Positions 12,977 to 35,922 of a stretch of 64,000 nt of DNA are shown here, one piece after another (positions within the stretch are counted from its first letter, which is position 1; each line of letters starts with the position of its first letter). The DNA lies in assembly GCF_040958095.1 (NCBI RefSeq), contig NC_091158.1:41186647-41250646 (forward strand), read 5' to 3'. The position numbers and the translations under genes are program-made. The stretch comes from Procambarus clarkii. Its lineage: Eukaryota > Arthropoda > Malacostraca > Decapoda > Cambaridae. The notes under the pieces are model-generated. The model saw nothing but the letters and a program-made list of their open reading frames with translations. It made no database searches and had not been told where the DNA came from.

Positions 12977-13343
12977 TTTAAAACCAAAAAAGCATAAAAA
13001 ACGCATTGAGTAAAATCAGCTTTCTGCTGTCCAAAATAAATATAATTTTTTAAATGATATTTATGCGTGTCTAGTCAATCTCCATCTCCACTTCATTCAA
13101 CACAAAATAATTATTACTGTGTGACAGATTTTTACACCTTGTAACAAACAATGTAACGTAATGCAGAAAATCAGCTATCTGCTGTCCCAAAATATATATC
13201 ATTTTTGAAATGTAAAGCACAATCGACTTGAGAATGGTCCAGGCTAGACCGAAACATCGTCGTCACTTCATTCTCTAGTGTGTGGATTGGTCAACATGTA
13301 AAGCGTGTCTAGTCCATTACATCCAACACCAAATAAATATTAC
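12977..13343. repeat. AT-rich direct repeats with a small insertion
   Basis: Two related units start at about 13015 and 13166. Both contain AATCAGCT, CTGCTGTCC, a run of AATATAT-type sequence and later GCGTGTCTAGTC, ending near TATTACTGTGTG. The second unit is interrupted by 13219-13295. There is no coding sequence. Confidence 0.6.
13219..13295. mobile_element. 77-bp insertion flanked by a 9-bp target-site duplication
   Basis: ATGTAAAGC occurs at 13210-13218 and 13296-13304 around a 77-bp segment containing GAATGGTCCAGGC. The first AT-rich unit lacks the segment and acts as an empty-site comparison. The size suggests the extreme 3' end of a retroelement, but the family is not identified. Confidence 0.55.
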
Positions 13344-13362
13344 TGTGTGTGTGTGTGTGTGT
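13344..13362. repeat. (TG)n tract at the 3' end of LINE copy A
   Basis: About nine TG units join the AT-rich repeat to the 3' end of LINE copy A. The paralogous AT-rich unit near 13120 has only TGTGTG at the equivalent place. Confidence 0.8.
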
Positions 13363-15973
13363 ACTCACCTAGTTGTGTTTGCGGGGGTTGAGCGCTGGCT
13401 CTTTGGTCCCGCCTCTCAACTATCAATCAACAGGTGTACAGATTCCTGAGCCTATTGGCCTCTATCATATCTACACTTGAAACTGTGTATGGAGTCAGCC
13501 TCCACCACATCACTTCCTAATGCATTCCATTTGTCAACCACTCTGACACTAAAAACGTTCTTTCTAATATCTCTGTGGCTCATTTTGCCACTCAGTTTCC
13601 ACCGGGTCCCCTTGTTCGTGTGCCCCTTGCGTTAAATAGCCTGTCTTTATCTACCCAACCAATTCCCTTCAGAATCTTGAATGTGGTGATCATGTCCGCC
13701 CCTAACTCTTCTGTCTTCCAGCGAAGTGAGGTTTATTTCCCGTAGTCTCTCCTCGTAGCTCATACCTCTCAGCTCGGGTACTAGTCTGGTGGCAAACCTT
13801 TGAACCTTTTCCAGTTTAGTCTTATCCTTGACTAGATATGGACTCCATGCTGGGGCTGCATACTCCAGGATTGGCCTGACATATGTGGTATACAAAGTTC
13901 TGAATGATTCTTTACACAAGTTTCTGAATGCCGTTCGTATGTTGGCCAGCCTGGCATATGCCACTGATGTTATCCTCTTGATATGGGCTGCAGGAGACAG
14001 GTCTGGCGTGATATCAACCCCCAAGTCTTTTTTTTTTCTCTGACTCCTGAAGAATTTCCTCTCCCAGAAGATGCCTTGTATCTGGCCTTCTTCTCCCTAC
14101 ACCTATCTTCATTCAACCCGTCCTCATAAAAATAACGTCACTTTTCGCTCGTATGCGCGTTATGGCCAAATTTAGACGTAATTTGAAATTAAATCGACTC
14201 ACAAAAGTGACGTACTGTCCCGCTTTCTGTTTGAGTCGTCCGGCTTACTCAGCAAGCTTAGAAAAGGAAATTTTCCATTAACGTTTTTCATACCATTTTG
14301 AAACTTTATGAGAAATTCCTGCCCACCTAACCTATCAGAGGACCCTTAACTTACTGTTGTTGAAAAAAAAATCCCAAATTTATATTAATTTTTTTTCCAT
14401 TTTCAAATTACGTCCATATTCGGCCATACAGGCAAACGGCCATAAGTGACGTTCTTTTTAAGAGGACAGGTTGCTTCATTACATTACATTTGGTTGGGTT
14501 AAACTCTAACAACCATTTGTTCGACCATTCCTTCAGCTTGTCTAGGTCTTCTTGAAGCCTCAAACAGTCCTCTTCTGTCTTAATTCTTCTCATAATTTTG
14601 GCACCGTCCGCAAACATTGAGAGAAATGAAACTATACCCTCCGGGAGATCTTTTACATATATCAGAAACAAGATAGGACCCAGTGCAGAGCCCTGTGGGG
14701 CTCCACTGGTGACTTCACGCCTATTGGAGGTCTCACCCCTCACCGTAACTCTCTGCTTGCTATTGCTTAGGTACTCCCTTATCCACTGGAGCACCTTACC
14801 AGCTACACCTGCCTGTCTCTCCAGCTTATGTACTAGCCTCTTATGCGATACTGTGTCAAAGGCTTTCCGACAAACCATGAAATGCAATCCGCCCATCCTT
14901 CTCTTTCTTGCTTAATCTTTGTCACCTGGTTGTAGAATTCTATTAAGCCAGTCAGTCAAGATTTACCCCCCCCCTGAATCCTTGTTGGCGATTTGTCACG
15001 AAGTTCCTACTCTCCAGATGTGATACCAGTTTTTTTTCTCACGATCTTCTCCATCACCTTGCATGGTATCCAAGTCAAGGACACTGGCCTGTAGTTCACT
15101 GCCTCTTGCCTGTCGCCCTTTTTGTATATGGGGACTACATTCGCCATCTTCCATATTTCTGGTAGGTCTCCCGTCTTCAGTGACCTACTATACACTATGG
15201 AGAGTGGCAAGCAAAGTGCCTCTGCACACTCTTTCAGTACCCATTGCGAGATCCCGTCTGGACCAACAGGCTTTCTAACATCCAGATCCAGCAGGTGTCT
15301 CTTGACCTCCTCTCTCGTAATTTTGAACCCTTCCAAGGCCGCCTGGTTTACTTCCCTTTCTCCTAGCGTAGTGACCTCGCCTTGTTCTGTTGTGAAGACC
15401 TCCTGGAACCTCTTGTTGAGTTCTTCACGCACCTTTTTGTCATTCTCTGTATACCTGTCCACGCCGGTTCAAAGTTTCACTACCTGTTCTTTCACTGTTG
15501 TTTACCTTCTGATGTGACTGTGGAGTAGCTTTGGTTCGGTCTTGACTTTGTTTGCTATATCATTTTCATAAGTTTTCTCTGCTTCTCTTCTCACCCTGAC
15601 ATACTCATTCCTGGTTCTCTGCTATCTCTCTCTGCTTTCAGTGTTCTGATATTCCGGAAATTCCTCCACGCCCTTTTGTTCAGTTTCTTTGCTTCCATAC
15701 ATGCCCTATTATACCATGGATTCTTCTTTTGCTTCTCGGATTTTTCCTTTTGGGCCGGGATGTATCTGCTTACTGCCTCCTAACACTTTTGGGCGACATG
15801 GTTCATCATATCTTGTACAGACTTAGCTCTGAGGTCTGTGTCCCAAGGTATTTCCCTTAGGAAGCTTCCCATCTCCTCATAACTTCCCTTTCGGTATGCC
15901 AGCCTTTTGTTTCCTAGTTCCTTTTTGGGGGAGATAATTCCTAGCTCTACCACGGAAACAAGGGTAAACAAGA
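13363..15973 (-). mobile_element. Array LINE copy A (CR1-like, 5'-truncated, minus strand)
   Basis: Read on the minus strand, the LINE starts inside the region between endonuclease and RT (about 15971), passes through RT and ends at ACTCACCT at 13363. Frames at 15007-15462 (NYRPVSLTW), 14408-14896 (SGAPQGSALGPILFLIYV; the catalytic box reads FADGAKIM instead of FADD) and 13647-14024 (YTTYVRPILEYAAPAWSPYL) are separated by frameshifts and by the MITE at 14114-14473. The damaged catalytic box and shifts make it a pseudogene. It belongs to a subfamily slightly different from copies B-E and closer to F. Confidence 0.85.
14114..14473. mobile_element. MITE with about 75-bp terminal inverted repeats and a 7-bp target-site duplication
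   Basis: CTTCATT at 14107-14113 recurs at 14474-14480 around a 360-bp non-coding insert in LINE copy A. The left end CAACCCGTCCTCATAAAAA and the reverse complement of the right end CAACCTGTCCTCTTAAAAA pair, and similarity continues for about 75 bases to GACGTAATTTGAAA. No transposase is present, so it is non-autonomous. The superfamily is uncertain. Confidence 0.8.
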
Positions 15974-15988
15974 ATGTGTGTGTATGTG
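15974..15988. repeat. (TG)n tract between LINE copies A and B
   Basis: This is a short TG tract with one TA, marking the 3' end of copy B next to the 5' side of copy A. Confidence 0.75.
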
Positions 15989-18900
15989 CTCACCTATTTG
16001 TGCTTGCGGGGGTTGAGCTTTGGCTCTTTGGTCCCGCCTCTTAACTGTCAATCAACTGGTGTACAGATTCCTGAGCCTACTGGGCTCTATCATATCTACA
16101 TTTAAAACTGTGTATGGAGTCAGCCTCCACCACATCACTGCCTAGTGCATTCCATCCGTTAACTACTCTGACACTGAAAAAGTTCCTTCTAACGTATCTG
16201 TGGCTCATGTGGGTACTCAGTTTCCACCTGTGTTCCCTTGTTCGCGTCCCACCAGTGTTGAATAGTTTATCCTTGTTTACCCGGTCGATTCCCCAGACGA
16301 TTTTGTAGGTTGTGATCATGTCTCCCCTTACTCATCTGTCTTCCAGTGTCGTAAGGTGCATTTCCCACAGCCATTCCTCGTAACTCATGCCTCTTAGTTC
16401 TGGGACTAGTCTAGTGGCATACCTTTGGACTTTTTCCAGCTTCGTCTTGTGCTTGACAAGGTACGGGCTCCATGCTGCGGCCGCATACTCCAGGATTGGT
16501 CTTACATATGTGGTGTACAAGATTCTGAATGATTCCTTACACAGGTTCCTGAACGCTGTTCTGATGTTAGCCAGCCTCGCATATGCCGCAGACGTTATTC
16601 TTTTTATGTGGGCTTCAGGAGACAGGTTTGGTGTGATATCAACTCCTAGATCTTTCTCTCTGTTTGTTTCATTAAGTACTTCATATCCTATTCTGCATCC
16701 TGTGTTTGGCCTCCTATTTCCACCACCTAGTTTCATTACTTTCCATTTATTCGGGTTGAACTTCAACAGCCATTTGTTGAACCATTCACTCAGTCTGTCT
16801 AGGTCATCTTGTAGCCTCCTACTATCGTCCTCAGTTTCAATCCTCCTCATAATTTTTGCATCATCGGCAAACATTGAGAGAAACGATTCTATACCCTTTG
16901 GGAGATCATTTACATATATCAGAAACAGTATAGGTCCAAGGACTAACCCCTGCGGTACTCCACTCGTAACGTCTCGCCAATCTGAGACCTCACCCCTCAC
17001 ACTGACTCCTTGTCTCCTGTTACTTAGGTACTCCTGTATCCAACGGAGTACCTTCCCTTTCACTCCAGCCTGCATCTCCAGTTTTTTCACTAGCCTCTTG
17101 TGTGGCACTGTATCAAAGGCTTTCTGACAATCTAAAAATATGCAGTCTGCCCACCCTTCTCTTTCTTGCCTTATTTTTGTTGCCTGGTCGTAGAATTCAA
17201 GTAACCCTGTGAGGCAGGACCTGCTATCCCTGAATCAATGTTGATGCTGTGTTACAAAGTTCTTTCGCTCCAGGTGCTCCACTAGCTTTCTTCGCACAAT
17301 CTTCTCCATCATCTTGCATGGTATGCAGGTTAGGGACACTAGTCTGTAATTCAGTGCCTCCTGTCTATTCCCTTTCTTGTATATCGGGACTACGTTAGCT
17401 GCTTTCCAAATTTCTCGCAGTTCCCCTGTTGCCAGTGATTTGTTATACACCATGGAAAGCGGGAGGCACAGTTCTTCTGCTCCTTCCTTTAGTATCCAAG
17501 GGGAGATTCCATCTGGGCCTACAGCCTTTGTCACATCCAATTCTAGTAAACACTTCCTTACTTCCCCACTGGTAATCTCAAACTCTTCCAGTGGTTCCTG
17601 GTTAGCTATTCCTTCTCTTATCTCTGGGATTTCTCCTTGCTCTAAGGTGAAGACCTCTTGGAATTTCTTACTCAGTTCCTCACACACTTCCTTGTCGTTT
17701 GTAGTGAATCCTTCTGCCCCTATCCTTAATTTCATAACCTGTTCCTTTACTGTTGTTTTTCTCCTGATGTGGCTATGCAGCAATTTAGGCTGAGTCTTTG
17801 CCTTGCTTGCGATGTCATTTTCGTATTGTTTTTCTGCCTCTCTTCTCATCCTGACATATTCATTCCTGGCATTCTGGTATCTTTCTCTGTTCTCCAGTGT
17901 CCTGTTATTCCTATAGTTTCTCCATGCCCTTTTACTTTGCTGCTTAGCTAGCCTACATCTCTGATTAAACCATGGGTTTCTCATCTTCATTTCACTGTTT
18001 TCCTTTTGGACTGGGACAAACTTTTTTGCTGCGTCCTTGCATTTTTGCGTGATGTGTTCCATCATATCATGGGCCGTCTTTTCCCTGAGCTCTGTTTCCC
18101 ATGCTATATCTGCTAGGCATTTTCTTATCTCCTCATGGTTTCCCTTTCGGTATGCTAACCTTTTGGTTTTGGTATCCCTCCTCGAGTTCAACAACCCTTC
18201 TTCAATCAGGTACTCAAACACCAATACACTGTGGTCGCTCATTACTACTGGGTCCTCAAAACTGATTTCTCTTATGTCAGAGTCGTTCAGGGTGAAAACC
18301 AGGTCGAGTCTTGTTACGGACCCGGATCCAGCATCCGAGCACGGAGCAGTGACGACCACGCCATCTGTGGGTCAGCTCCCGAAACCCCCTCCAAACGGAC
18401 GACGACACCTGGTGAGGACGACGTGTACTGGCTACGAGGGCCAGTTTCCAGTCCCGTTCAGCGCTCAACACAGCCACTGCTGACCTCTGGTGAGGTGGTG
18501 CTCGGCCGACAACGCCATCTAGGGAGTGGATAGGTGGGCGTTTGGGTCTGAGCCTGTAAGTGAGGTGCTTTAGTGTGTCCCTGTTATTGATGACGTGTCT
18601 GCTTACAGAGTCGACCTGGGACTGCTGTAAGGGAAGTTGAGTCAGTCTACCCAAGGCAGCCGTCCCCATACCTTGTGCTTTGCTACAGCAGCTGTGAGTC
18701 GTCTCCCGGAGGAACACTGTGGTGTTACCCTGCCTGTGAAGCGGCAGTGAAGGATTGTCATTCCCGGGACCGACTGCTGGAGACGATTAACCACTGGGGT
18801 ATTGTAGACAGGAGAGTGATCTGTGGTATCACACGAAGCTCCTGACTAGGGAGCTACCCTAGTATCGCTCGTGGAGTGGCCTGACCAGCGTTGCTGATCC

Positions 18901-20495
18901 GGAACCTGCCAGCTGTGTTGCTGGACTTGTGGTTGATGGCCTCCACAGCGGTGCCCCCAGTGGAACTGTTTTGGCTGGCCTGTGGCCGGGGTAAACTCAG
19001 CTTCTCAAAGGATTCGTTGTGAGGCCACGAAAGCACCGAGAGCTTGGATCCAGAGTCTCCAGGAGAAGACGTTTGTGTAAATAATTCCCCTGTACAGTGT
19101 TAATACCCCCTCCCCCCGTGTAATCTTTTTATATATTTATTGTTGATGGAAATAATTATAGTATTAAGTTCTTGACTTTATTTCCCTTCCCCTTTTAGTT
19201 TACTTGCGTCACGGATCACATCCCTTGAAAGCCACTACTGGCTTGGGGCCGGATACCCTTCCTCGAGCAACATCAGAGTAAGAACCCCGTTGCGACCCGA
19301 GAGGGCCGTAACAAGTCTCACTGGTTCGTCATTTCCTCTCATCCTTGTGGGTTCACTGACATGCTGGGTTAAGAAGTTTCTAGTCGCCACCTCCAGTAGT
19401 TTGGCTCTCCACGTATCCTCGCCTCCATGCGGTTCCCTGTTCTCCCAATCAATCCTGCCGTGATTAAAGTCCCCCATGATGAGCAGGTGGGATCTATTTC
19501 TACAGGCAGAAGAGGCTGCCCTCTCAATTATAGTGTTAACTGCCATGTTGTTGCTTTCGTACTCTTGACTGGGTCTTCTGTCATTTGGTGGAGGATTATA
19601 TATTACTGGTACTACTATCCTTCGTCCTCCCATTGTCATGGTGCCTGCTATGTAGTCTCTGAAACCCTCACAGCCCAGGATAGCCATCTCCTTAAAATTC
19701 CATTCCTTTCTCATGAGTAGGGCCACTCCGCCTCCTCCCCTACCTTCCCTCTCTTTCCTTATTATTGTGTACTCCTGGGGAAACACGGCATTCGTTATGA
19801 TTCCAGAGAGTTTTGTTTCAGTGAGTCCAATTACATCTGGGTTCACTTCTTGTGCTCTTTCCCTTAGTTCACTTGCCTTGCTTGTGATCCCATCTATGTT
19901 CGAGTACATTGCCCTGAAACTAACTCTCTTCTGCTTCTCCTCTGGGGGGGACCTGTGGTGTCTGGGGGTGAGCAGGAGCTGGGAGGATCTGGTATGGGGA
20001 GACTGGTGGAGGAGGAAGGGCTTGGGGGGTATGGGGGAGGGGGAGGGTAGGGGGGGGGGTGGGGGGGTGGGGGGATGGGGGGATGGGGGAGAAAGGAGGG
20101 TTTGGGGGGGCAATAAAGTGGGGAGGGCTTGGGGGGCGTGGGGGGAAAGGGAAGGCTGAGGTGGTTGAGGAAGAGGGGAGGGTTTTGGGGAGTGGTGGAG
20201 AGGGGAAGGCTTAGGTGGGGTGGGGGAGAGTGGGGAGCTTAGGGGGGTGGGGGAGAATGGAGGGCTTGTGGGTGGGAGGGACGGAAGGGCATGTGGAAGA
20301 AGGGAGGGCTTGGGGGATGGGGGAAAAGGGAGGTCCTGGGGGGATGGGGGAGTGGGAGGAGGGGGGTGAGTGGGAGGAGAGGGGTGGGTGGGGGGAGGGT
20401 GCCTTAGGTGGGTACTTAGTGGGGGGCTGACAGGGGTTGGGGCAGGTAGGGTATCTGTTGGGTGGAATGTGGGGGTGGTGCCGCACTCCCTCTGT
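15989..20495 (-). mobile_element. Array LINE copy B (full-length layout, about 3.5 kb without its insert)
   Basis: On the minus strand it starts near 20495 with GGGAGTGCGGCACCACC, has a Pro-rich segment (about 20470-19960), then an APE endonuclease (YSNIDG, LTETKLSG, GDFNHGRIDW) to about 19319. After the solo LTR insert, SDHSVL and the RT continue at 17235-18359 and 16332-17108 (DCQKAFDT-type palm, SGVPQGLVLGPILFLIYV, FADDAKIM), ending with CRYDRAQ at 16077. Frameshifts or stops occur near 17235 and 16330. It is closest in sequence to copy D rather than to its neighbour C. Confidence 0.85.
18312..19313. mobile_element. Solo LTR (1002 bp) inside LINE copy B
   Basis: The segment starts TGTTACGG and ends CCGTAACA, an 8-bp inverted pair with TG...CA ends. 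It is flanked by AGTCT at 18307-18311 and 19314-19318. It has no long ORF and splits the endonuclease frame of copy B exactly. These are the marks of a solo LTR left by recombination of an LTR retrotransposon. The parental family and orientation are not determined. Confidence 0.8.
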
Positions 20496-20502
20496 GTGTG
20501 TT

Positions 20503-20830
20503 TACTAGTTGTGTTTTTACGGGGGTTGAGCTTTGCTCTTTCGGCCCGCCTCTCAAGTGTCAATCAACTGTTTACTAACTACTTTTTTTTTTTTTTTTTT
20601 TTTTTTTTTCCCACACCACACACACACACACCCCAGGAAGCAGCCCGTGACAGCTGACTAACTCCCAGGTACCTATTTACTGCTAGGTAACAGGGGCATT
20701 CAGGGTGAAAGAAACTTTCCCCGTTTGTTTCTGCCTCGTGCGGGAATCGAACCCGCGCCACAGAATTACGAATCCTGCGCACTATCCACCAGGCTACGAG
20801 GCCCGTAGCCTGGACCACAGCCCACAGCCT
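20503..20830 (-). mobile_element. SINE-1: tRNA-derived SINE with the tail of the array LINE
   Basis: On the minus strand a tRNA-like head has an A-box-like TAGCCTGGTGG (20786-20796) and a perfect B-box GGTTCGATTCC (20743-20753). A five-pair anticodon stem gives anticodon CGT (Thr-like). The body, containing TACCTGGGAGTTAGTCAGCT, is shared with SINE-2 at 41150. An A-rich run (20583-20609 on plus) and a roughly 62-bp tail follow; the tail matches the 3' end of the array LINEs (GGCGGGNCC..AAGAGC..AGCTCAACCCCCG) and ends in a short CA repeat. It is not a functional tRNA gene, because it is embedded in a longer repeat. Confidence 0.82.
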
Positions 20831-20867
20831 GTGTGTGTGTGTGTGTGTGTGTGTGTGATTGTGTGTT

Positions 20868-20913
<46 letters not shown>
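20830..20913. repeat. (TG)n tract between LINE copy C and SINE-1
   Basis: An 84-bp tract, mostly TG, with ATTGTG and TTTGTTTG interruptions. It is the 3' tail of copy C. Confidence 0.9.
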
Positions 20914-20915
<2 letters not shown>

Positions 20916-21586
20916 CTCACCAAATTGTACTCACCTAATTGTGCTTGCGGGGGTTGAGCTCTGGCTCTTTGGTCCCGCCTCTCAACCGTCAATCAACTGG
21001 TGTACAGATTCCTGAGCATACTGGGCTCTATCATATCTACATTTGAAACTGTGTATGGAGTCAGCCTCCACCACATCACTTCCTAGTGCATTCCATTTAC
21101 TAACTACTCTGACACTGAAAAAGTTCTTTCTAACGTCTCTGTGGCTCATTTGGGTACTCAGCTTCCACCTGTGTCCCCTTGTTCGCGTCCCACCAGTGTT
21201 GAATAGTTTATCCTTGTTTACCCGGTCGATTCCCCTGAGGATTTTGTAGGTTGTGATCATGTCCTCCCTTACTCTTTTGTCTTCCAGTGTCGTAAGGTGC
21301 ATTTCCCGCAGCCTTTCCTCATAACTCATGCCTCTTAGTTCCGGGACTAGTCAAGTAGCATATCTTTGGACTTTTTCCAGCTTCGTCTTGTGCTTGACAA
21401 GGTACGGGCTCCATGCTGGGGCCGCATACTCCAGGATTGGTCTTACATATGTGGTGTACAAGATTCTGAATGATTCCTTTCACAGGTTCCTGAACGCCGT
21501 TCTGATGTTAGCCAGCCTCGCATACACCGCAGACGTTATTCTATTTATGTGGGCTTCAGGAGACAGGTTTGGTGTGATATCAACTC

Positions 21587-22210
21587 CTAGATCTTTTTCT
21601 CTGTTTCATTAAGTACTTCATCTCCTATTCTGTATCCTGTGCCTGGCCTCCTGTTTCCACTGCCTAGTTTCATTACTTTGCATTTACTCGGGTTGAACTT
21701 CAACAGCCATTTGTTGGACCATTCACTCAGTCTATCCAGGTCATCTTGTAGCCTCCTACTATCATCCTCTGTTTCAATCCTCCTCATAATTTTTGCATCG
21801 TCGGCAAACATTGAGAGGAACGAATCTATACCCTCTAGGAGATCATTTCCATATACCAGAAACAGAATAGATCCAAGGACTGACCCCTGCAGGACACCAC
21901 TTGTGACGTCTAGCCAATCTGAGACCTCACCCCTCAAACAGACTCGTTGTCTCCTGTTGCTTAGGTACTCCTCTATCCACCGGAGTACCTTCCCTTTCAC
22001 TCCAGCCTGCATCTCTAACTTTCGCACTAGCCTCTTGTGTGGCACTGTATCAAAGGCTTTCTGACAATCCAAAAATATGCAGTCTGCCCACCCTTCTCTT
22101 TCTTGCCTTATTTTTGTTGCCTGGTCGTAGAATTCAAGTAACCCTGTGAGGCAGGACCTGCCATCCCTGAACCCATGTTGATGCTGTGTTACAAAGTTCC
22201 TTCGCTCCAC
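21587..22210 (-). pseudogene. LINE copy C ORF2, RT palm
   Basis: The frame resumes with NFVTQHQHGFRDGRSCLTGL, then LDCQKAFDTVPHKRL (motif A), SGVLQGSVLGSILFLVYG (motif B; VPQG in other copies) and the intact catalytic box FADDAKIM. It ends near 21600, where four bases are missing compared with copies B and D. The remainder of the ORF follows in another frame. Confidence 0.85.
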
Positions 22211-23843
22211 ATGCTACACTAGTTTTTTTTCGCACAATCTTCTCCATCAGCTTGCATGGTATGCAGGTTAGGGACACAGGCCTGTAGTTCAGTGCCTCCT
22301 GTCTATCCCCTTTCTTGTATATCGGGACTACGTTAGCTGCTTTCCAAATATCTGGCAGTTCCCCTGTTGCCAGTGATTTGTTATACACAATGGAGAGTGG
22401 TAGGCACAGTTCTCTTGCTCCTTCCTTTAGAACCCAAGGGGAGATTCCATCTGGGCCTATAGGCTTCGTCACGTCCAACTCTAGTAAACACTTCCTTACT
22501 TCCCCACTGGTAATCTCAAACTCTTCCAGTGGTTCCTGGTTAGCTATTCCCTCACTTACCTCTGAAATTTCTCCTTGCTCTAAGGTGAAGACCTCCTGGA
22601 ATTTCTTATTCAATTCCTCACAAACTTCCTTTTCATTTGTAGTGAATCCTTCCGCCCCTATCCTTAATCTCATAACCTGTTCCTTTACTGTTGTTTTTCT
22701 CCTAATGTGGCTATGCAACAATTTAGGCTGAGTCTTTGCCTTGCTTGCGATGTCATTTTCGTATTGTCCTTCTGCCTCTCTTCTCATCCTGACATATTCA
22801 TTCCTGGCATTCTGGTATCTTTCTCTCCTCTCCAGAGTCCTGTTATTCCTATAGTTTCTCCATGCCCTTTTACTTTGCTGCTTAGCTAGCCTACATCTCT
22901 GATTAAACCATGGGTTTCTCATTTTCATTTCTTTGTTTTCCTTTTGCACTGGGACAAACTTGTTTGCTGCGTCCTTGCACTTCTGCGTGATGTAATGCAT
23001 CATATCTTGGGCCGTCTTTCCCCTGAGCTCTGTTTCCCATGCTATATCTGTTAGGAATTTTCTTATCCCCTCATAGTTTCCCTTTCGGTATGCTAACCTT
23101 TTGGTTTCGGTATCCCTCCTCGAGTTCAATAACCCTTCTTCAATCAAGTACTCAAACACCAGTACACTGTGGTCGCTCATTCCTACTGGGTCCTCAAAAC
23201 CGATTTCTCTTATGTCGGAGTCGTTCAGAGTGAAGACTAGGTCGAGTCTCGCTGGTTCGTCATTGCCTCTCATCCTTGTGGGTTCTCCGACATGCTGGGT
23301 TAAAAAGTTGCTTGTCACCACCTCCAATAGTTTGGCACTCCACGTATCCTTGCCTCCATGCGGTTCCTTGTTCTCCCAGTCAATCTTTCCGTGATTTAAG
23401 TCCCCCATGATGAGCAGGTGGGATCTATTTCTACAGGCAGCAGAGGCTGCCCTCTCAATTATAGTGTTAACTGCCATGTTGTTGTTTTCATACTCTTGAC
23501 TGGGTCTCCTGTCATTTGGTGGAGGGTTGTATATTACTGCTACAACTATTCTTGGTCCTCCCATTGTTATGGTGCCTGCTATGTAGTCTCTGAACTCCTC
23601 ACAGCCCGGGATGGCCATCTCCTTAAAACTCCATTCCTTTCTCATGAGTAGGGCCACTCCGGCTCCTCCCCTACTTTCCCTCTCTTTCCTTATTACTGTG
23701 TACTCCTGGGGAAACACTGCATTCGTTATGATTCCAGAGAGTTTTGTTTCAGTGAGTCCGATTACATCTGGGTTCTCTTCTTGTGCTCTTTCCCTTAGTT
23801 CACTTGTCTTGCTTGTGATCCCATCTATGTTCGAGTACATCAC
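22134..23843 (-). pseudogene. LINE copy C ORF2, N-terminal part: APE endonuclease and RT fingers
   Basis: A 569-residue frame begins MYSNIDG and contains TETKLSG, GDLNHGKIDW (GDFN in other copies), LDLVFTLNDSDIRE and SDHSVLVFEYL. These are the metal-binding and catalytic motifs of LINE endonucleases. A basic linker follows (RCRLAKQQSKRAWRNYRNN) and then the first RT block YRPVSLTCIPCKLMEKIV. A homopolymer expansion near 22215 throws the frame off before the palm. A functional copy would nick target DNA and reverse transcribe the element RNA there. Confidence 0.85.
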
Positions 23844-23859
23844 CCTGAAACTGACTCTC

Positions 23860-24490
23860 TTCTGCTTCTTTTCTGGGGGGGACCTTTGGGATCTGGGGTG
23901 AGTGGGAGCTGGGGGGACCTGGCACGGGGAGTTTGGTGGAGGAGGGAGGGCTTGGGTGGTGGGGGAGAAGGGGAGGGTACAGGAGGTGGATAAGAGGGGG
24001 AGGGTACAGGGGGTGGGTAAGAGGGGGAGGGTACAGGGGGTGGGTAAGAAAGGGAGGGATGGGGAAACATGCGGGGAGGAGAGGCTGTGGGGGATAGGGG
24101 AGATGGGGGGGCTTGGGGGGAGAGAAAAGTGTGGAGGGCTTGGGGGGCGTGGGGGAAAAGGGAGGGCTGAGGTGGGTGAGGAAGAGGGGAGGGTTTAGGG
24201 GAGTAGGGGAGAGGGGAAGACTTAGGTGGGGTGGGGGAGAGTGGGGGGCTTACGGGGGAGGGGGGGAGGGAGGGCATGGGGGTGGGAGAGACGGGAAGGC
24301 ATGTGGGAGAAGGGAGGGCATGGGGGATGGGGGAGAAGGGAGGTCCTGGGGAGAGGGGTGAAGGGGAGAAGGGTGGTGAGTGGGAGGAGGGGGGTGGGTG
24401 GGGGGAGGGTGCCCTATCTGGGTACTTAGTGGGGGGGCTGACAGGGGATGGGGCAGGTTGGGTGTCTGTTGGGTAGAATGTGGGGGGTGG
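23860..24490 (-). other. Pro/Ser-rich 5' segment of LINE copy C
   Basis: The minus strand is C-rich and encodes Pro-Ser-His-rich low-complexity sequence in an open frame up to the endonuclease. The same kind of segment opens copies B and D. It may be a degenerate ORF1 or an untranslated leader; no zinc knuckle is visible. The frame runs on into the (CA)n tail of the neighbouring copy D. Confidence 0.5.
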
Positions 24491-24505
24491 TGACACACAC
24501 ACACA

Positions 24506-24538
<33 letters not shown>
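24506..24538. repeat. (TG)n tract between LINE copies C and D
   Basis: The tract is preceded by an (AC)n run at 24492-24505, so the junction holds two opposite dinucleotide runs. It is the 3' tail of copy D next to the 5' start of copy C. Confidence 0.88.
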
Positions 24539-24540
<2 letters not shown>

Positions 24541-27500
24541 CACCTATTTGTACTCGCCTATTTGTGCTTGTGGGGGGCTGAGCTCTGGCTCTTTGGTCCC
24601 GCCTCTCAACCGTCAATCAACTGGTGTACAGATTCCTGAGCCTACTGGGCTCTATCATATCTACATTTAAAACTGTGTTTGGAGTCAGCCTCTACCACAT
24701 CACTGCCTAATGCATTCCATCTGTTAATAACTACTCTGACACTGAAAAAGTTCCTTCTAACGTCTCTGTGGCTCATGTGGGTACTCAGTTTCCACCTGTG
24801 TCCCCTTGTTCGCGTCCCACCAGTGTTGAATAGTTTATCCTTGTTTACCCGGTCGATTCCCCAGACGATTTTGTAGGTTGTGATCATGTCTCCTCTTACT
24901 CATCTGTCTTCCAGTGTCGTAAGGTGCATTTCCCGCAGCCTTTCCTCGCAACTCATGCCTCTTAGTTCTGGGACTAGTCTAGTGGCATACCTTTGGACTT
25001 TTTTCAGCTTCGTCTTGTGCTTGACAAGGTACGGGCTCCATGCTGGGGCCGCATACTCCAGGATTGGTCTCACATATGTGGTGTACAAGATTCTGAATGA
25101 TTCCTTTCACAGGTTCCTGAACGCTGTTCTGGTGTTAGCCAGCCTCGCATATGCCTCAGACGTTATTCTTTTTATGTGGGCTTCAGGGGACAGGTTTGGT
25201 GTGATATCAACTCCTAGATCTTTCTCTCTGTTCGTTTCATTAAGTACTTCATCTCCTATTTTGTATCCTTGTGTCTGGCCTCCTCTTTCCACAAACTAGT
25301 TTCATTACTTTGCATTTACTCGGGTTGAACTTCAACAGCCATTTGTTGAACCATTCACTCAGTCTGTCTAGGTCATCTTGTAGCCTCCTACTATCGTCCT
25401 GAGTTCCAATCCTCCTCATAATTTTTGCATCATCGGCAAACATTGAGAGAAAGGATTCTATACCCTCTGGGAGATCATTTGCATATATCAGAAACAGTAT
25501 AGGTCCAAGGACTGTCCCCTGCGGGGCTCCACTTGTAACGTCTCGCCAATCTGAGACATCACCCCTCACACTGACTCGTTGTCTCCTGTTGCTTAGGTAC
25601 TCCTGTATCCAACGGAGTACCTTCCCTTTCACTCCAGCCTGCATCTCCAGCTTTTTCACTAGCCTCTTGTGTGGTACTGTATCAAAGGCTTTCTGACAAT
25701 CCAAAAATATGCAGTCTGCCCACCCATCTCTTTCTTGCCTTGTTTTTGCTGCCTGGTCGTAGAATTCAAGTAACCCTGTGAGGCAGGACCTGCCATCCAT
25801 GAATCCATGTTGATGCTGTGTTACAAAGTTCTTTCGCTTCAGGTGCTCCACTAGCTTTCTTCGCACAATCTTCTCCATCAGCTTGCATGGAATGCAGGTT
25901 AGGGAGACTGGCCTGTAATTCAGTGCCTCCTGTCTATCCCCTTTCTTGTATATCAGGACTACGTTAGCTGCTTTCCAAATTGCTGGCAGTTCCCCTGTTG
26001 ACAGTGATTTGTTATACACAATGGAGAGTGCGAGGCACAGTTCTTCTGCTCCTTACTGTAGTATTCAAGGGGAGAATCCATCTGAGCCTATAGCCTTTGT
26101 CACATCCAACTCTAGTAAACACTTCCTTACTTCCCCGCTGGTAATCTCAAACTCTTCCTGTGGTTCCTGGTTAGCTATTCCCTCTCTTATCTCTGGGATT
26201 TCTCCTTGTTCTAAGGTGAAGACCTCTTGGATTTTCTTATTCAGTTCCTCACACACTTCCTTGTCGTTTGTAGTGAATCCTTCTGCCCCTATCCTTAATT
26301 TAATAACCTGTTCCTTTACTGTTGTTTTTCTCCTGATGTGGCTATGCAGCAATTTAGGCTGAGTCTTTGCCTTGCTTGCGATGTCATTTTCGTATTGTCT
26401 TTCTGCCTCTCTTCTCATCCTGACATATTCATTCCTGGCATTCTGGTATCTTTCTCTACTCTCCAGTGTCCTGTTATTCCTATAGTTTCTCCATGCCCTT
26501 TTACTTTGCTGCTTAGCTAGCCTACATCTCTGATTTAACCATGGGTTTCTCATCTTCATTTCACTGTTTTCCTTTTGGACTGGGACAAACTTGTTTGCTG
26601 CGTCCTTGCATGATGTATTCCATCATATCTTGGGCCGTCTTTTCCCTGAGCTCTGTTTCCCATGCTATATCTGCTAGGCATTTTCTTATCTCCTCATAGT
26701 TTCTCTTTCGGTATGCTAACCTTTTGGTTTCGGTATCCCTCCTCGAGTTCAATAACCCTTCTTCAATCAGGTACTCAAACACCAATACACTGTGGTTGCT
26801 CATTCCTACTGGGTCCTCAAAACTGATTTCTCTTATGTCAGAGTCGTTCAGGGTGAAAACCAGGTCGAGTCTCGCTGGTTCGTCATTTCCTCTCTTCCTT
26901 GTGGGTTCACTGACATGCTGGGTTAAGAAGTTTCTAGTTGCCACCTCCAGTAGTTTGGCTCTCCACGTATCCTCGCCTCCATGCGGTTCCTTGTTCTCCC
27001 AATCAATCCTGCCGTGATTAAAGTCCCCCATGATGAGCAGGTGGGATCTATTTCTACAGGCAGAAGAGGCTGCCCTCTCAATTATAGTGTTAACTGCCAT
27101 GTTGTTGCTTTCGTACTCTTGACTGGGTCTTCTGTCATTTGGTGGAGGATTATATATTACTGCTACTACTATCCTTGGTCCTCCCATTGTCATGGTGCCT
27201 GCTATGTAGTCTCTGAAACCTTCACAGCCTGGGATAGCTATCTCTTTAAAATTCCATTCCTTTCTCATGAGTAGGGCCAATCCGCCTCCTCCCCTACCTT
27301 CCCTCTCTTTCCTTATTATTGTGTACTCCTGGGGAAACACAGCATTCGTTATGATTCCAGAGAGTTTTGTTTCAGTGAGTCCAATTACATCTGGGTTCAC
27401 TTCTTGTACTCTTTCCCCTAGTTCACTTGCCTTGCTTGTGATCCCATCTATGTTCGAGTACATTGCCCTGAAACTAACTCTCTTCTGCTTTTCCTCTGGG

Positions 27501-28096
27501 GGGACCTGTGGGGTCTGGGGTGAGCGGGAGCTGGGAGGATCTGGTATGGGGAGACTGGTGGAGGAGGAAGGGCTTAGGTTGGGGGGTAGGGGGGAGGGGG
27601 AGGGTAGGGGGAGTGGGTGAGGGGGGGGAGGGGGAGGGTAGGGGGAGTGGGTGAGGGGGGGAGGGTTGGGGGGGTGGGTGAGAGGGGGAGGGTTGGGGGG
27701 GTGGGGGAGAAAGGGGGGTTTGGGAGGGCAATAAAGAGGGGAGGGCTTGGGGGGCGTGGGGGGAAAGGGAAGGCTGAGGTGGTTGAGGAAGAGGGGAGGG
27801 TTTTGGGGAGTGGTGGAGAGGGGAAGGCTTCGGTGGGGTGGGGAGCTTAGGGGGGTGGGGGAGAATGGAGGGCTTGTGGGTGGGAGGGACGGAAGGGCAT
27901 GTGGGAGAAGGGAGGGCTTGGGGGATAGGGGAGAAGGGAGGTCCTGGGGGGAGGGGGGAGTGGGAGGAGGGGGGTGAGTGGGAGGAGAGGGGTGGGTGGG
28001 GGGAGGGTGCCTTAGGTGGGTACTTAGTGCGGGGCTGACAGGGGTTGGGGCAGGTAGGGTGTCTGTTGGGTGGAATGTGGGGGTGGTGCCACACTC

Positions 28097-28098
<2 letters not shown>
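24539..28098 (-). mobile_element. Array LINE copy D (full-length layout, about 3.56 kb)
   Basis: On the minus strand it has a Pro-rich start near 28098 (GGGAGTGTGGCACCACC), an endonuclease frame at 26561-27463 (YSNIDG, TETKLSG, GDFNHGRIDW), a linker at 26065-26559, RT at 25249-26019 (SGAPQGTVLGPILFLIYA, FADDAKIM) and C-terminal pieces at 25107-25292, 24900-25088 and 24642-24887. A small deletion near 26610 and other shifts break the ORF. Its sequence is closest to copy B. Confidence 0.86.
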
Positions 28099-28129
<31 letters not shown>

Positions 28130-28141
28130 TTGTGTGTGTGT

Positions 28142-28218
<77 letters not shown>

Positions 28219-28223
28219 TGTGT
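28099..28223. repeat. (TG)n tract between LINE copies D and E
   Basis: At 125 bp this is the longest dinucleotide tract in the window, with two GATTGTG interruptions and one TTTG. It is the 3' tail of copy E. Confidence 0.9.
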
Positions 28224-30071
28224 ACTCACCTATTTGTACTCGCCTATTTGTGCTTGTGGGGGTTGAGCTCTGGCTCTTTTGTCCCGCCTCTCAACCGTCA
28301 ATCAACTGGTGTACAGATTCCTGAGCCTACTGGGCTCTATCATATCTACATTTAAAACTGTGTTTGGAGTCAGCCTCCACCACATCACTGCCTAATGCAT
28401 TCCATCTGTTATTAACTACTCTGCCACTGAAAAAGTTCCTTCTAACGTCTCTGTGGCTCATGTGGGTACTCAGTTTCCACCTGTGTTCCCTTGTTCGCGT
28501 CCCACCAGGGTTGAATAGTTTATCCTTGTTTACCCAGTCGATTCCCCAGACGATTTTGTAGGTTGTGATCATGTCTCCCCTTACTCTTCCAGTGTCGTAA
28601 GGTGCATTTCCCGCAGCCTTTCCTCGTAACTCATGCCTCTTAGTTCTGGGACTAGTCTAGTGGCATACCTTTGGACTTTTTTCAGCTTCGTCTTGTGCTT
28701 GACAAGGTAAGGGCTCCATGCTGGGGCCGCATACTCCAGGATTGGTCTCACATATGTGGTGTACAAGATTCTGAATGATTCCTTTCACAGGTTCCTAAAC
28801 GCTGTTCTGATGTTAGCCAGCCTCGTATATGCCGCAGACGTTATTCTTTTTATGTGGGCTTCAGGAGACAGGTTTGTTGTGATATCAACTCCTAGATCTT
28901 TCTCTCTCTGTTCGTTTCATTAAGTACTTCATCTCCTATTCTGTATCCTGTGTCTGGCCTCCTATTTCCACTGCCTAGTTTCATTACTTTGCATTTACTC
29001 GGGTTGAACTTCAACAGCCATTTTTTGGACCATTCACTCAGTCTGTCTAGGTCATCTTGTAGCCTCCTACTATCGTCCTCAGTTCCATCCTCCTCATAAT
29101 TTTTGCATCATCGGCAAACATTGAGAGAAATGATTCTATACCCTTTGGGAGATCATTTACATATATCAGAAACAGTATAGGTCCAAGGACTGACCCCTGC
29201 GGGACTCCACTCGTAACGTCTCGCCAATCTGAGACATCACCCCTCACACTGACTCGTTGTCTCCTGTTGCTTCGGTACTCCTGTATCCACCGTAGTACCT
29301 TCCCTTTCACTCCAGCCTGCATCTCCAGCTTTTTCACTAGCCTCTTGTGTGGCACTGTATCAAAGGCTTTCTGACAATCCAAAATTATGCAGTCTGCCCA
29401 CCCATCTCTTTCTTGCCTTATTTTTGTTGCCTGGTCGTAGAGTTCAAGTAACCCTGTGAGGCAGGACCTGCCATCCCTAAATCCATGTTGATGCTGTGTT
29501 ACAAAGTTCTTTCGCTCCAGGTGCTCCACTAGCTTTCTTCGCACAATCTTCTCCATCAGCTTGCATGGAATGCAGGTTAGGGCCACTGGCCTGTAATTCA
29601 GTGCCTCCTGTCTATCCCCTTTCTTGTATATCAGGACTACGTTAGCTGCTTTCCAAGTTGCTGGCAATTCCCCTGTTGACATTGATTTGTTATACACTAT
29701 GGAGAGTGGGAGGCACAGTTCTTCTTCTCTTTACTTTAGTATCCAAGGGGAGATTCCATCTGGGCCTATAGCCTTTTTCACATCCAACTGTAGTAAACAC
29801 TTCCTTACTTCCCCGCTGGTAATCTCAAACTCTTCCTGTGGTTCCTGGTTAGCTATTCCCTCTCTTATCTCTGGGATTTCTCCTTGCTCTAAGGTGAAGA
29901 CCTCTTGGAATTTCTTATTCAGTTCCTCACACACTTCCTTGTCGTTTGAAGTGAATCCTTCTGCCCCTATCCTTAATTTCATAACCTGTTCCATTACTGT
30001 TGTTTTTCTCCTGATGTAGCTATGCAGCAATTTAGGCTGAGTCTTTGCCTTGCTTGCGATGTCATTTTCGT

Positions 30072-30073
<2 letters not shown>
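28224..30073 (-). mobile_element. Array LINE copy E (5'-truncated)
   Basis: On the minus strand it begins in the basic linker before RT (about 30073) and continues through frames at 29731-30030 and 29047-29697 (LDCQKAFDTVPHKRLV, SGVPQGSVLGPILFLIYV, FADDAKIM) to C-terminal pieces at 28581-28766 and 28327-28572. A two-base loss near 29090 and further shifts disrupt it. The 5' end abuts another TG tract rather than a full LINE start. Confidence 0.85.
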
Positions 30074-30105
<32 letters not shown>

Positions 30106-30199
30106 TACCTAAGTGTAGTTACAGGATGAGAGCTACGCTCGTGGTGTCCCGTCTTCCCAGCACTCTTTGTCATATAACGCTTTGAAACTACTGACGGTG

Positions 30200-30230
<31 letters not shown>

Positions 30231-30240
30231 GTGTATGTGT
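30074..30240. repeat. Two (TG)n tracts around a 94-bp repeat fragment
   Basis: TG tracts at 30074-30102 and 30197-30240 flank 30103-30196. The fragment contains TTACCTAAGTGTAGTTACAG and TCATATAACGC and looks like the 3' end of a different repeat family that also ends in (TG)n. The family is not identified. Confidence 0.6.
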
Positions 30241-30653
30241 ACTCACCTAGTTGTACTCACCTAGTTGTACTCACCTAGTTGTGCTTGCGGGGGTTGAGCT
30301 CTGGCTCTTTGGTCCCGCCTCTCAACCGTCAATCAACAGGTGTACAGGTTCTTGAGCCTACTGGGCTCTATCATATCTACACTTGAAACTGTGTATGGAG
30401 TCAGACTCCACCACATCACTTCCAAATGCATTCCATTTGTCAACCACTCTGACACTAAAAAAGTTCTTTCTAATATCTCTGTGGCTCATTTGGGCACTCA
30501 GTTTCCACCTGTGTCCCCCTAGTGCGTGTGCCCCTTTTGTTAAATAGCCTGTCTTTATCAACCCCGTCGATTCGCTTGAGAATCTTGAATGTGGTGATCA
30601 TGTCCCCCCTAACTCTTCTGTCTTCCAACAAAGTGAGGCTCAATTCCCGTAGT
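30241..30653 (-). mobile_element. Array LINE copy F (3' end only)
   Basis: This is the 3' roughly 410 bases of the array LINE on the minus strand, with three short near-identical ACTCACCTAGTTGTG starts in tandem at 30241-30285. The coding remnant (30358-30685) includes KNFFSVRVVDKWNAFGSDVV, the family C-terminal motif. The sequence stops at 30653 against a 62-bp tandem repeat. Confidence 0.8.
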
Positions 30654-30836
30654 CGAAGTCTACAGTGCCCAACCACAGTGCTCAACTAGCCCACTTGGCT
30701 AGTACCTTCCAGAATCGAAGTCTACAGCGCCCAACCACAGTGCTCACCTAGCCTCACTGGCTAGCACCTCCAGGAGAGAAGTCTATAACACTCAACAGCA
30801 GCGCTCAACTAGCCCACTTAGCTAGCACCTTCAGGT
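30654..30836. repeat. Tandem repeat, about three 62-bp units
   Basis: Units start at about 30654, 30716 and 30777, each beginning GAAGTCTA and containing CTAGC..CACTTGGCTAG-type sequence. They are diverged by point changes. No coding role is visible. Confidence 0.75.
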
Positions 30837-31001
30837 CGACCCAAGTCTTCCACTGTCCCGACTTCACTGACTCCCATCCCTCGTCCGTGTTACTCGTCAT
30901 CTTTCAGCCTGGCCGACTACAAGATGGGAAATTGATTAATGGGAGGGTCAACTGCTGTAGTTCGGCCACTGAATCGTAGATGGCGCCAAGGTCCGTGACA
31001 G
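30837..31001. other. Unassigned sequence
   Basis: I recognise no coding or repeat structure here. Confidence 0.4.
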
Positions 31002-31145
31002 AAGTGATGTGGTGGAGGCAGACTGCATGCACAGTTCCAAGTGTAGATATGATTGAGCGACTAGGCTAAGGAACCTGTTCACCAGTTGAAAGGCGGGGAC
31101 CAAAGAGCCAGAGCTCAACCCCTGCAAGCACAACTAGGTAAGTAC
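31002..31145 (+). mobile_element. 3' end of an array-type LINE, plus strand
   Basis: This is the reverse complement of the terminal roughly 140 bases of copies A-F (GAGCCAGAGCTCAACCCC and CACAACTAGGTAAGTAC). It ends in a weak CA-rich tail (ACATACACAAG) directly before LINE copy G, so the tail-to-start junction of the array is repeated here on the other strand. Confidence 0.72.
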
Positions 31146-31210
31146 ATACACAAGAAACACAGGTAGCGACAACAAACTTTTTAAGGCAGCATGTCAGGGA
31201 ATCCACAAGC

Positions 31211-32811
31211 GTGAAAGGAATCGATGAACAAGCGAGACTCGAACTAGTCTTCACTCTGAACGACTCCGACATAAGAGAAATCGGTTTTGAGGCCCCAGTA
31301 GGAATGAGCAACCACAGTGTACTGAAGGTTGAGTATCTGGTTGAAGAAGGGTTAATGAACTCGAGGAGGGGAACTGAAACAAATTATTCATGGCTGTCAT
31401 TCCGAAATGGAAACTGTGAGGAGATAAGAAAATTCCTAACAGATGTTACATGGGAAACAGTGCTCAGGGGAAACACGGCCCAAGACATGATGGAATACAT
31501 CACGCAGAAGTGTAAGGAGACAGCAGACAAGTTTGTCCCGGTTCAAAAGGATAAGAATGAAATACAGATGAGAAACCCATGGTTTAATCAGAGATGTAGG
31601 CTAGCTAAGCAGCAAAGTAAAAGGGCGTGGAGAAACTACAAAAATAACCGGACACTGGAGAGCAGAGAAAGATACCAGAGAGCCAGGAATGAATATGTCA
31701 GGTTGAGAAGAGAGGCAGAAGGGCTATACGAAAATGACATCACAAGCAAGGCAAAGACTCAACCTAAATTACTGCACAGCCACATCTGGAGAAAAGAGCA
31801 GTAAAGGAACAGGTAATGAAAATGAGGATAGGGGCAGACAGGTTCACAACAAATGACAAGGAAGTGTGCAAGGAACTGAATAGGAAATTCAAAAAGGTCA
31901 TCACATTAGAGCAAGGAGAAGTACCAGAGATAGGAGAGGAAATAGTTAACCAGGCACAACTAGAAGAGTGTGAGAGTACCAGTGGGGATGGAAGGAAGCT
32001 TTTGCTAGAGTTGGTTGTGACAAAGGCTATATGCTCAGAGGGAATCTCCCCTCTGATACTAAAGGAAGGAGCAGAAGTATGGTGCCTTCCACTCTCCCTA
32101 ATGTATAACAAATCACTGGTAACAGGGGAATTGCCAAAAATTTGGAAGAAGGTTAATGTAGTCCCGATATACAGAGGGGAAAGACAAGAGGAACTGAATT
32201 ACAGACCAATGTCTCTAACTTGCATACCATGCAAGCTGTTGGAGAAGCTTGTGCGTAAGAAGCTAGTGGATCATCTGAAGATAAAGAACTTTGTAACACA
32301 ACATCAACATAGGTTCAGGGATGGCAAGTCCTGCCTCACAGGATTAATTGAATCCTACGACAAGGCAAAAAAAAAAAAAAATCAGGCAAGAAAGAGAGGG
32401 GTGGGCAGACTGCATATTTTTGGATGGCCAGAAAGCCTTTGACACAGTGCAACACAAGAGGCTTGTGCAAAAGCTGGAGATGTAGACACGAGTGAAAGGG
32501 AAGGTACTCCATTGGATAAGGGAGTACCTAAGCACCAGAAGACAGCGAGTCACTGTGAGGGGTGAGGTCTCAGATTGGAGAGGCGTCACCAGTGGAGTGC
32601 TGCAGGGGGTCAGTCTTGGACCTATACTGTTTTTGATATATGTAAATGATCTCCCAGAGGATACAGAATCATTTCTCTCAATGTTTGCTGACGATGCCAA
32701 AAATATGAGGATTAAAACAGAATAAAATAGTATGAGGCTACAAGATGACCTAGACAAACTGAATGAATGGTACAACAACTGGCTACTAAAGGCTACTACT
32801 AAAGGCTACTA
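31211..32811 (+). pseudogene. LINE copy G ORF2 fragment
   Basis: Frames at 31211-31804 (LVFTLNDSDIREIGF, RCRLAKQQSKRAWRNYKNNR), 31816-32442 (NYRPMSLTCIPCKLLEKLVR) and 32492-32725 (SGVLQGVSLGPILFLIYV, FADDAKNM) carry the end of the endonuclease and most of RT. Small deletions, an A-run expansion near 32370 and stop codons separate them. The block stops at 32811, where a piggyBac start codon abuts. Confidence 0.82.
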
Positions 32812-34709: not shown

Positions 34710-34959
34710 TGTGGCACTGTGCGCTGCGCCTTGCTACACAAGGTACCACCGAAGAAAGATATTTTGGGTGGAGAAAAAATAACCACCGCCAACAGCTTCA
34801 CTCCACCTAAGAAACATCAGATGAGCAACTTCAGGATCAGAAGCCTGAAGATGGTGGAGTGAAGAAAAAATGCTCAACTGTTGATCTTCAATTAACATAG
34901 ACACGGTAAGTACACCTATTTGGAATTTTTTATCATCTATAAGAAGTTATATTATATAC

Positions 34960-35800: not shown

Positions 35801-35922
35801 AATTATTGTCAGGACAGTCAAAAGAGTGTACACTTTTTTGGTCTTACCGCGTAGGCGCGCGAAGCACTGAAAGCATCTAGGGTATTATTTTTTTTTGAGC
35901 GCCGAGAGCGCGAAAGTGTTAA

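Follow-up and report, generated by a model that had tools for sequence, protein, structure and literature searches.

Microsatellite-targeting long interspersed elements (LINEs) are known from the R1 clade, Waldo being an example, and the endonuclease–reverse transcriptase (EN–RT) protein of that clade carries a CCHC motif. CR1 elements encode an EN–RT protein as well. In Drosophila, HeT-A and TART form one-way head-to-tail chains of LINEs at the telomeres. Here we analysed a 64,000-nucleotide stretch of the genome of the crayfish Procambarus clarkii (assembly GCF_040958095.1, contig NC_091158.1, positions 41,186,647–41,250,646 of the forward strand; hereafter the window) that holds a head-to-tail array of LINE copies and short interspersed elements (SINEs). 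The family comprises CR1-like LINE subfamilies and tRNA-derived SINEs that have the LINE 3' end in common, and its tails are CA repeats. We favour, with some reserve, the view that it is a CR1-clade lineage with CA-repeat specificity whose tail is its target, which builds self-feeding LINE/SINE arrays and is the source of nearly all long CA microsatellites.

Going by the portions of the cited sources available to us, the R1-clade endonuclease is of the apurinic type (PMC4640811), and Mino, an R1-clade LINE that targets AC repeats, occurs in the shrimp Penaeus monodon (PMC3124438). The (TG)n-specific Togen LINEs of fish are treated among families related to NeSL, a clade with a restriction-like endonuclease (PMC4640811). 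In snakes, the 3' end of CR1-L3 seeds an AATAG microsatellite (PMC6050309). Amniote CR1 elements, the most abundant transposable element family of birds and turtles, have a conserved 3' hairpin and an octamer repeat (PMC4316615). RTE families of Lepidoptera seed microsatellites, and DONG and TRAS are repeat-targeted LINEs (PMC2887409).

The crayfish LINE resembles Mino and Waldo in its AC/CA dinucleotide target and its apurinic-type endonuclease. It differs from them in that most of its named relatives are proteins of birds, others coming from turtle and crayfish, in that the CCHC motif of the R1 clade was not found in its 1124-residue open frame at a second locus (L016, below), and in that its own tail is CA, so that it makes its own target. 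With Togen it shares (TG)n specificity, but its endonuclease is of the exo/endo-phosphatase type. Snake CR1-L3 is likewise a CR1-group LINE with a microsatellite-seeding 3' end, whereas the passages of that source covered here (PMC6050309) describe neither 5'-side insertion into such repeats nor arrays. Amniote CR1 has a short-repeat 3' end and an EN–RT protein in common with the crayfish LINE, which differs in ending with a 14-nt repeat and a CA dinucleotide tail and in its preference for CA tracts. In RTE on the one hand and DONG and TRAS on the other, seeding and targeting reside in different elements, whereas the crayfish family seems to do both. HeT-A and TART are alike in their one-way chains but telomeric; the crayfish arrays at L016 and L025 are internal, megabases from the contig ends. 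Among the literature matches listed, which did not extend to Repbase or subscription journals, there was no CA-targeting CR1 and no description of this crayfish family, nor any LINE of CR1 type that builds LINE/SINE arrays by both making and entering CA repeats.

Architecture of the array

The order of the array was established from self-BLAST, sequence reading and junction printouts. Six CR1-like LINE copies (A–F) and two short elements make up eight members at 13344–30654, all on the minus strand in a single orientation, as the original prediction had it for the LINE copies. Read 5' to 3' on that strand, the order is F, a short element, E, D, C, SINE-1, B and A. The features of the array and of a plus-strand neighbour are as follows (ORF, open reading frame; LTR, long terminal repeat).

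13344..15975, minus strand: LINE copy A, 5'-truncated within ORF2; tail (CA)9 at 13344–13361; insert of about 460 bp
15976..20493, minus strand: LINE copy B, long, with the same 5' start as D; CA tail short and degenerate
18312..19313, orientation not assigned: solo-LTR-like insert in B, 1,002 bp, TGTTACGG...CCGTAACA, TG...CA ends, AGTCT on both sides
20494..20829, minus strand: SINE-1, tRNA-like head and LINE-derived 3' end, between the C tail and the B 5' end
20830..20911, minus strand: CA tract, the tail of C, adjoining the SINE-1 5' end
20912..24506, minus strand: LINE copy C, EN and N-terminal RT in the open frame 22134–24194 (686 amino acids)
24507..24536, minus strand: CA tract of 15 units, the tail of D, adjoining the C 5' end
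24537..28098, minus strand: LINE copy D, long copy; stops in common with E and with B
28099..28223, minus strand: CA tract with AATC interruptions, the tail of E, adjoining the D 5' end
28224..30073, minus strand: LINE copy E, 5'-truncated in ORF2; ACA overlap at the join to the next CA tract
30074..30196, minus strand: short 5'-truncated element (SINE-2), ending GGTAATTAC(CA)14, between F and E
30197..30237, minus strand: CA tract, the tail of F, adjoining the 5' end of the short element
30238..30654, minus strand: LINE copy F, 5'-truncated; non-CA 5' flank (run 3); 5'-most array member
31001..31146, plus strand: LINE 3' end U, degenerate CA tail; own 5' flank non-CA (run 3)
31161..32784, plus strand: LINE copy G, 5'-truncated; begins right behind the degenerate tail of U (CA run 5)

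A CA tract lies directly at the 5' start of seven of the eight array members. The longest CA alternation in the 40 bp upstream is 31 nt for C, 30 for D, 29 for E, 28 for SINE-1, 26 for the short element and 8 each for A and B; the exception is the 5'-most member F, with a run of 3. The expectation that each member begins right after the previous CA tract thus held, and the plus-strand junction from the tail of U into G (31001–31146 and 31161–32784) is additional to those originally predicted. A pattern search of the 64-kb window gave eight CA/TG runs of 16 nt or longer, and every one of them is inside the array.

Aligned lengths were 3502 nt for B (without its 1.0-kb insert), 3585 for C, 3563 for D, 1850 for E, 417 for F and 2156 for A (without its insert), and the truncation of A, E and F reported earlier was confirmed. 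B, C and D had been described as copies of about 3.5 kb with the same start. The lengths agree and B and D begin alike (GGGAGTGYGGCACC), whereas the first ~15 bases of C are unlike theirs, its junction reading (CA)15-TTG-(TG)n-TCACC. At this C 5' junction (24496–24520) a CA tract switches to TG on the same strand, like a short switch seen upstream of a SINE–LINE chimera in L029. Similarly, most copies do end in (CA)n as proposed, but B ends in GGTGAGCAC followed by a short degenerate tail. Within the window, no second copy was found of the solo-LTR-like insert of B, nor any other copy of the 95-bp body of the short element.

CA flanks of 5' ends in a genome sample

We examined 30 stretches of 10 kb from the same genome (labelled with L numbers, such as L016), placed at preset coordinates and none picked for content, amounting to 300,000 bases of which 5,525 are N. 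They lie on 25 contigs with lengths of 42.9–65.5 Mb. The query library consisted of the copies in the window and of LINE and SINE units that were identified afterwards in L016, and the counted set comprised 29 copies with a readable 5' end. A 5' end was scored as CA-flanked when CA alternated without interruption for 8 nt or more within the 40 bp upstream; the background was every seventh base on both strands.

By this measure, 17 of the 29 5' ends were CA-flanked, compared with 0.58% of background positions. A dinucleotide score also gave 17/29, where 2000 stretch-matched permutations averaged 0.61 and never exceeded 4; the two sets of 17 differ, L026 and L016:7209 being gained and L025:1152 and L029 lost under the dinucleotide score. 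The flanks are specific in strand and motif. Upstream tracts on the element strand were CA in 17, TG in one, AG/CT in one and AT in none of the 29, while the sample supplies 878 bp of CA/TG, 1706 bp of AG/CT and 3352 bp of AT tracts. A control SINE with another tail (SINE_w41) lacked a CA run of this length upstream in all six scored copies; its copy L025:2078, which adjoins a LINE tail, sits both among the 29 and among the six. The 5' flanks of copies elsewhere in the genome, proposed at the outset as the test, are therefore not random in this 300-kb sample. Together with the interleaved arrays below, they uphold the reading of repeated insertion into (CA)n tracts, earlier tails included.

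A same-strand family 3' end was found within 110 bp upstream of 12 of the 29 copies by script, and reading by eye adds L025:5890. Of the 17 CA-flanked copies, eight (L008, L010, L012, L016:2540, L020, L025:932, L025:6019 and L029) have no recognised same-strand family tail there; CA tracts that stem from elsewhere thus seem to be targeted too. Among the 12 copies without an 8-nt run, four lie behind a degenerate family tail (L016 6420, 6801 and 7209; L025 2078). That the 5' CA might be part of the element's own start was ruled out, since copies truncated at many different points also adjoin CA.

Left out of the 29 were the SINE_w41 copies except L025:2078 (those with a readable head served as the control); SINE fragments of 72–78% (L017); head-only or antisense sub-hits (L010, L016); L015, whose 5' end lies outside the stretch; the weak or distant L023, L024:4755 and L024:8140; the plus-strand SINE of L008 and the SINE at L025:845 (5' end within a TG tract); and sub-pieces of counted copies (L012, L016, L020, L024, L025, L026 and L029).

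The association also holds when viewed from the tracts. In the 300-kb sample, 16 of 18 CA/TG tracts of at least 16 bp lie within 40 bp of a family copy, as do 5 of 22 AG/CT and 1 of 55 AT tracts, the copies with their 40-bp margins covering 27,932 of the 300,000 bases. Among the 16 are tails of the copies themselves and TG runs inside SINEs, so this count measures the making of tracts as well as their entering. Sequence-pattern searches of viral contig and genome contig collections returned no copy for the patterns used.

Further arrays and copies

Two of the sampled stretches hold arrays of their own. L016, 5.0 Mb into a 51.9-Mb contig, contains eight members in one orientation: a 3.4-kb LINE, a SINE, a truncated LINE, two SINEs, an internally deleted LINE, a truncated LINE and a SINE. 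Each member after the first begins behind the CA-type tail of its predecessor, in places a degenerate CA/CT tail, and the first LINE starts behind (CACG)n(CA)22, a tract not recognised as a family tail. L025, at 10.0 Mb of a 45.1-Mb contig, contains a minus-strand chain (6019, 5890, 3344, 2078), a second minus-strand chain (SINE, 703, 421) and a short plus-strand chain (932, 1152). LINE subfamilies and SINEs are interleaved in both stretches, and an array of such alternating families cannot be built by unequal crossing-over of one unit.

The L020 stretch holds a longer member of the subfamily of copy A, with an extra upstream frame that has no Pfam match and that we took for ORF1 by its position. 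It lies behind a CA-rich tract (run 8), which by eye is itself behind an apparent LINE 3' end. In L012 (467–677) and L029 (8562–8769), SINE pieces are fused to LINE pieces that exceed the usual shared tail, as if two RNAs had been joined; these fusions are possibly snapshots of the birth of new SINEs.

Protein, 3' end and SINE partners

Both window copy C and the L016 LINE encode an endonuclease of the exo/endo-phosphatase (apurinic) type (PF14529 and PF03372) and a reverse transcriptase (PF00078). The L016 frame runs for 1124 amino acids without a stop, from before the CA tract to 5823, with the first methionine at residue 173, and covers EN and RT. No RNase H match at E ≤ 0.1 was found in this frame. 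Protein relatives were taken from the best 120 of 1743 matches, with 8000 candidates scored. Most matches were unnamed; the named ones among these best 120 were mainly from the stork Mycteria americana (35–46%), with others from the crane Grus (43%), the turtle Caretta (40%) and the crayfish Cherax (61%). The best named crustacean matches were to Cherax quadricarinatus (52% over 56% and 61% over 65% of the queries), and there was a short Procambarus clarkii match (81% over 6%). The relatives themselves bear no CR1 label, and one (P0131) is filed under a bacterial metagenome-assembled genome. The CR1 label given in the original prediction appears to fit the LINE.

One further match, P0021, is a JGI-sourced protein on a 2,365-base contig, 100% identical to the L016 LINE over 73% of a 690-residue query. 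This identity suggests that crayfish-like DNA is probably present in a public metagenome.

The final 14 bases of the LINE are present in one to three tandem copies before the CA tail, so the 3' end is a short repeat rather than poly(A). The majority line of 30 aligned LINE and SINE 3' ends is GGCGGG...CTCAACCCCCGCAAGCACAACTAGGTGAGTAC. A two-helix fold is compatible with these ends, pairing in 94.0% of cells, but five measures were matched by 46 to 494 of 500 shuffles and RNAalifold gave 5 pairs only. A conserved 3' pseudoknot has neither statistical nor covariation support.

SINE-1 has a tRNA-Thr(cgt)-like head at 20732–20802 (Rfam tRNA, E = 9.2e-07), and its last ~65–80 bp match the LINE 3' ends at 80–85%. 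We also considered a self-cleaving ribozyme at the 5' ends and rejected it, as a search of 13000–41500 with Rfam gave only the tRNA match above the gathering score.

Serial insertion as the probable explanation

These results are very probably explained by serial insertion into CA tracts through tail-matched target-primed reverse transcription, which is our first choice over template jumping. The explanation builds on features read directly in the DNA, namely the tails, the CA-flanked 5' ends, the strand and motif specificity, the three array loci, the tail-sharing SINEs and one open EN–RT frame. Element RNAs would end in a CA repeat. The endonuclease would nick the TG strand of a CA tract, or the RNA tail would capture that strand, and the (CA)n end of the RNA would pair with it and prime target-primed reverse transcription. 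A full-length or 5'-truncated complementary DNA would then be joined to the CA on the other side. We infer the nicking step, the tail pairing and the insertion of one element at a time. Each new copy would carry its own CA tail and so provide a new landing site for later LINEs and SINEs. Since CA RNA always pairs with TG DNA, the orientation would be fixed, and the arrays would grow one way, head to tail.

The relationships among the copies bear on how the units arose. Over common columns, identities were 96.1% for B–D, 96.6% for D–E, 95.6% for B–E, 93.1% for C–E, 92.1% for B–C and 91.7% for C–D. A and F are 92.2% identical to each other, A being 74–76% and F 83–85% identical to B–E, and on sequence they are a distinct subfamily. 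Coding changes between C and B/D/E fall at third positions in 74 of 134 cases (p = 1.6e-7), whereas changes private to B, D or E (34 of 107 at third positions) have no such bias. The third-position bias indicates that C came from a different active source by a separate insertion.

Several points weigh against serial insertion as the whole explanation. The case for it includes neither an empty site nor a target-site duplication. Eight of the 29 5' ends in the sample adjoin neither a CA run nor a family tail (L009, L010:7957, L024, L026, which lies behind (CATA)n, two in L027 and two in L030); the L030 pair may represent a single copy that was interrupted, and both pieces were kept, which tells against the reading. 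L016 and L025 contribute 16 of the 29 copies. The CA-flanked share is 12/21 without L016 and 5/13 without both (L008, L010, L012, L020 and L029). Element starts were placed by eye from BLAST borders, and because the library came partly from L016, the SINEs there were found by reading, not blind. In the window, D and E agree against B and C at 16 sites spread over 1.6 kb, one of them an in-frame stop; a second stop is common to B and D, where E has a deletion, and a third to C, D and E. With these shared sites, simple and independent insertion from an active source does not account for every unit. Finally, template jumping is still a serious alternative, particularly for D and E.

The details of these shared sites are as follows. 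At column 3458, one of the 16, A and F side with D and E. D and E have 26 and 25 private sites, respectively, and six further sites split B, D and E otherwise (three B+D, three B+E). The in-frame stops of B lie at alignment positions 22174 and 21275 of C, and a TAG in A, B, D and E (TAT in C) was taken for the natural end of the frame. In the last ~350 columns of the alignment, seven B/D/E alleles are absent from the five to seven other copies comparable at each. B, D and E thus have a non-functional past in common, whether by duplication, by conversion or by mobilisation of a dead source in trans. Some local exchange or duplication, or else a dead source common to these copies, belongs to the history of the window array. 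Changes on the D branch number 13 in 1119 sites against 43 in 1833 (p = 0.025), and those on the B branch 15 against 37 (p = 0.20). That D is a mosaic whose 3' half comes from the E lineage is only suggestive, the trend on the B branch being similar but insignificant.

Alternative explanations

In template jumping, the reverse transcriptase would run off the 5' end of one RNA onto the next CA-tailed 3' end, laying down several elements per event, and the R2 reverse transcriptase jumps templates in vitro (PMC8857657, in the part available to us). The geometry of the array would be the same: D is a long copy whose 5' start is joined to the tail of E, the outer member E is truncated, and D and E, with their 16 shared and 26 and 25 private sites, have the appearance of two copies made from a single dead source. 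Jumps should start at the ends of templates, yet many internal members are 5'-truncated at varied points (A, E and G in the window; L016 6281, 7209 and 7865; L025 421, 703, 1152 and 3344). The eight CA-flanked sample copies without a same-strand family tail mean that CA targeting is needed anyway, and the authors of the R2 study suggest, in the part covered, that jumping may not be needed for retroelement spread (PMC8857657). As the builder of the arrays we consider it unlikely.

Unequal crossing-over or segmental duplication between CA tracts, multiplying one copy, has still less in its favour and is quite improbable. D and E are adjacent sisters that share a stop, a tail variant and the 16 sites setting them apart from B and C, and the second stop in B and D and the seven B/D/E alleles missing from comparable copies point the same way. 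However, C stems from a different active lineage, A and F form a distinct subfamily, SINE-1 and another short element stand between the units, and L016 and L025 alternate unlike families. Duplication would explain at most B, D and E, and six sites split these three otherwise. In none of the three arrays are neighbours closest and units alike, a pattern seen for D and E only. Simple tandem duplication as the array builder is ruled out by the interleaved families and the separate active ancestry of C. The original prediction had taken the greater closeness of B and D, compared with either to C, as an argument against duplication. That closeness is real (96.1% versus 92.1% and 91.7%), but the argument is weak because D and E agree at 16 sites including a stop and B and D share another stop; what decides between insertion and duplication is the interleaving of families. 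Chance clustering of CA-tailed LINEs in a CA-rich, repeat-rich genome can appeal to CA/TG tracts being common near the elements, which is so because the elements make them, and is practically negligible against 17/29 over a background of 0.58%, the strand and motif specificity and the 0/6 of the control SINE.

Other features of the window

The ~460-bp insert in copy A (~14018–14475) holds inverted repeats of ~75 bp (82.7%) and resembles a miniature inverted-repeat transposable element. The flank of the A tail (13313–13349, ATTACTGTGTG...) has an 85% relative over 33 bp, ~230 bp away (13087–13119), which reads ATTACTGTGTGACAG; the original site of A may accordingly have held only ~3 TG units. 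Just past the 5' end of F, between the minus- and plus-strand arrays, are about three units of a 62-bp repeat (30653–30835). At 32785–40310, piggyBac-like transposase pieces (at 32803 and from ~39591 onwards; named by eye) lie beside and between pieces of LINE copy G, of which 35918–36121 and 39210–39590 are likely further pieces.

A second, different LINE occupies 2124–7898 on the plus strand, with a frame of 433 amino acids followed by one of 1253 (EN, RT and RNase H-like by eye). A related 3' part is found upstream of the L020 LINE, the L020 piece having no Pfam match. Two copies at 57512–60085 and 61427–64000 are 99.65% identical over 2574 bp, with 3915 bp from one to the other, the second being cut by the window edge. 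This pair, which reflects either a recent duplication or an assembly effect, has a stretch in common with the second LINE, and 1675–2714 is a 93% relative.

Implications

With the tail serving as the target, the birth of microsatellites, the spread of LINEs and the spread of SINEs would be coupled in one loop in this crayfish. The occurrence of CA microsatellite markers within multicopy repeats might be explained by such a CA-tailed family.

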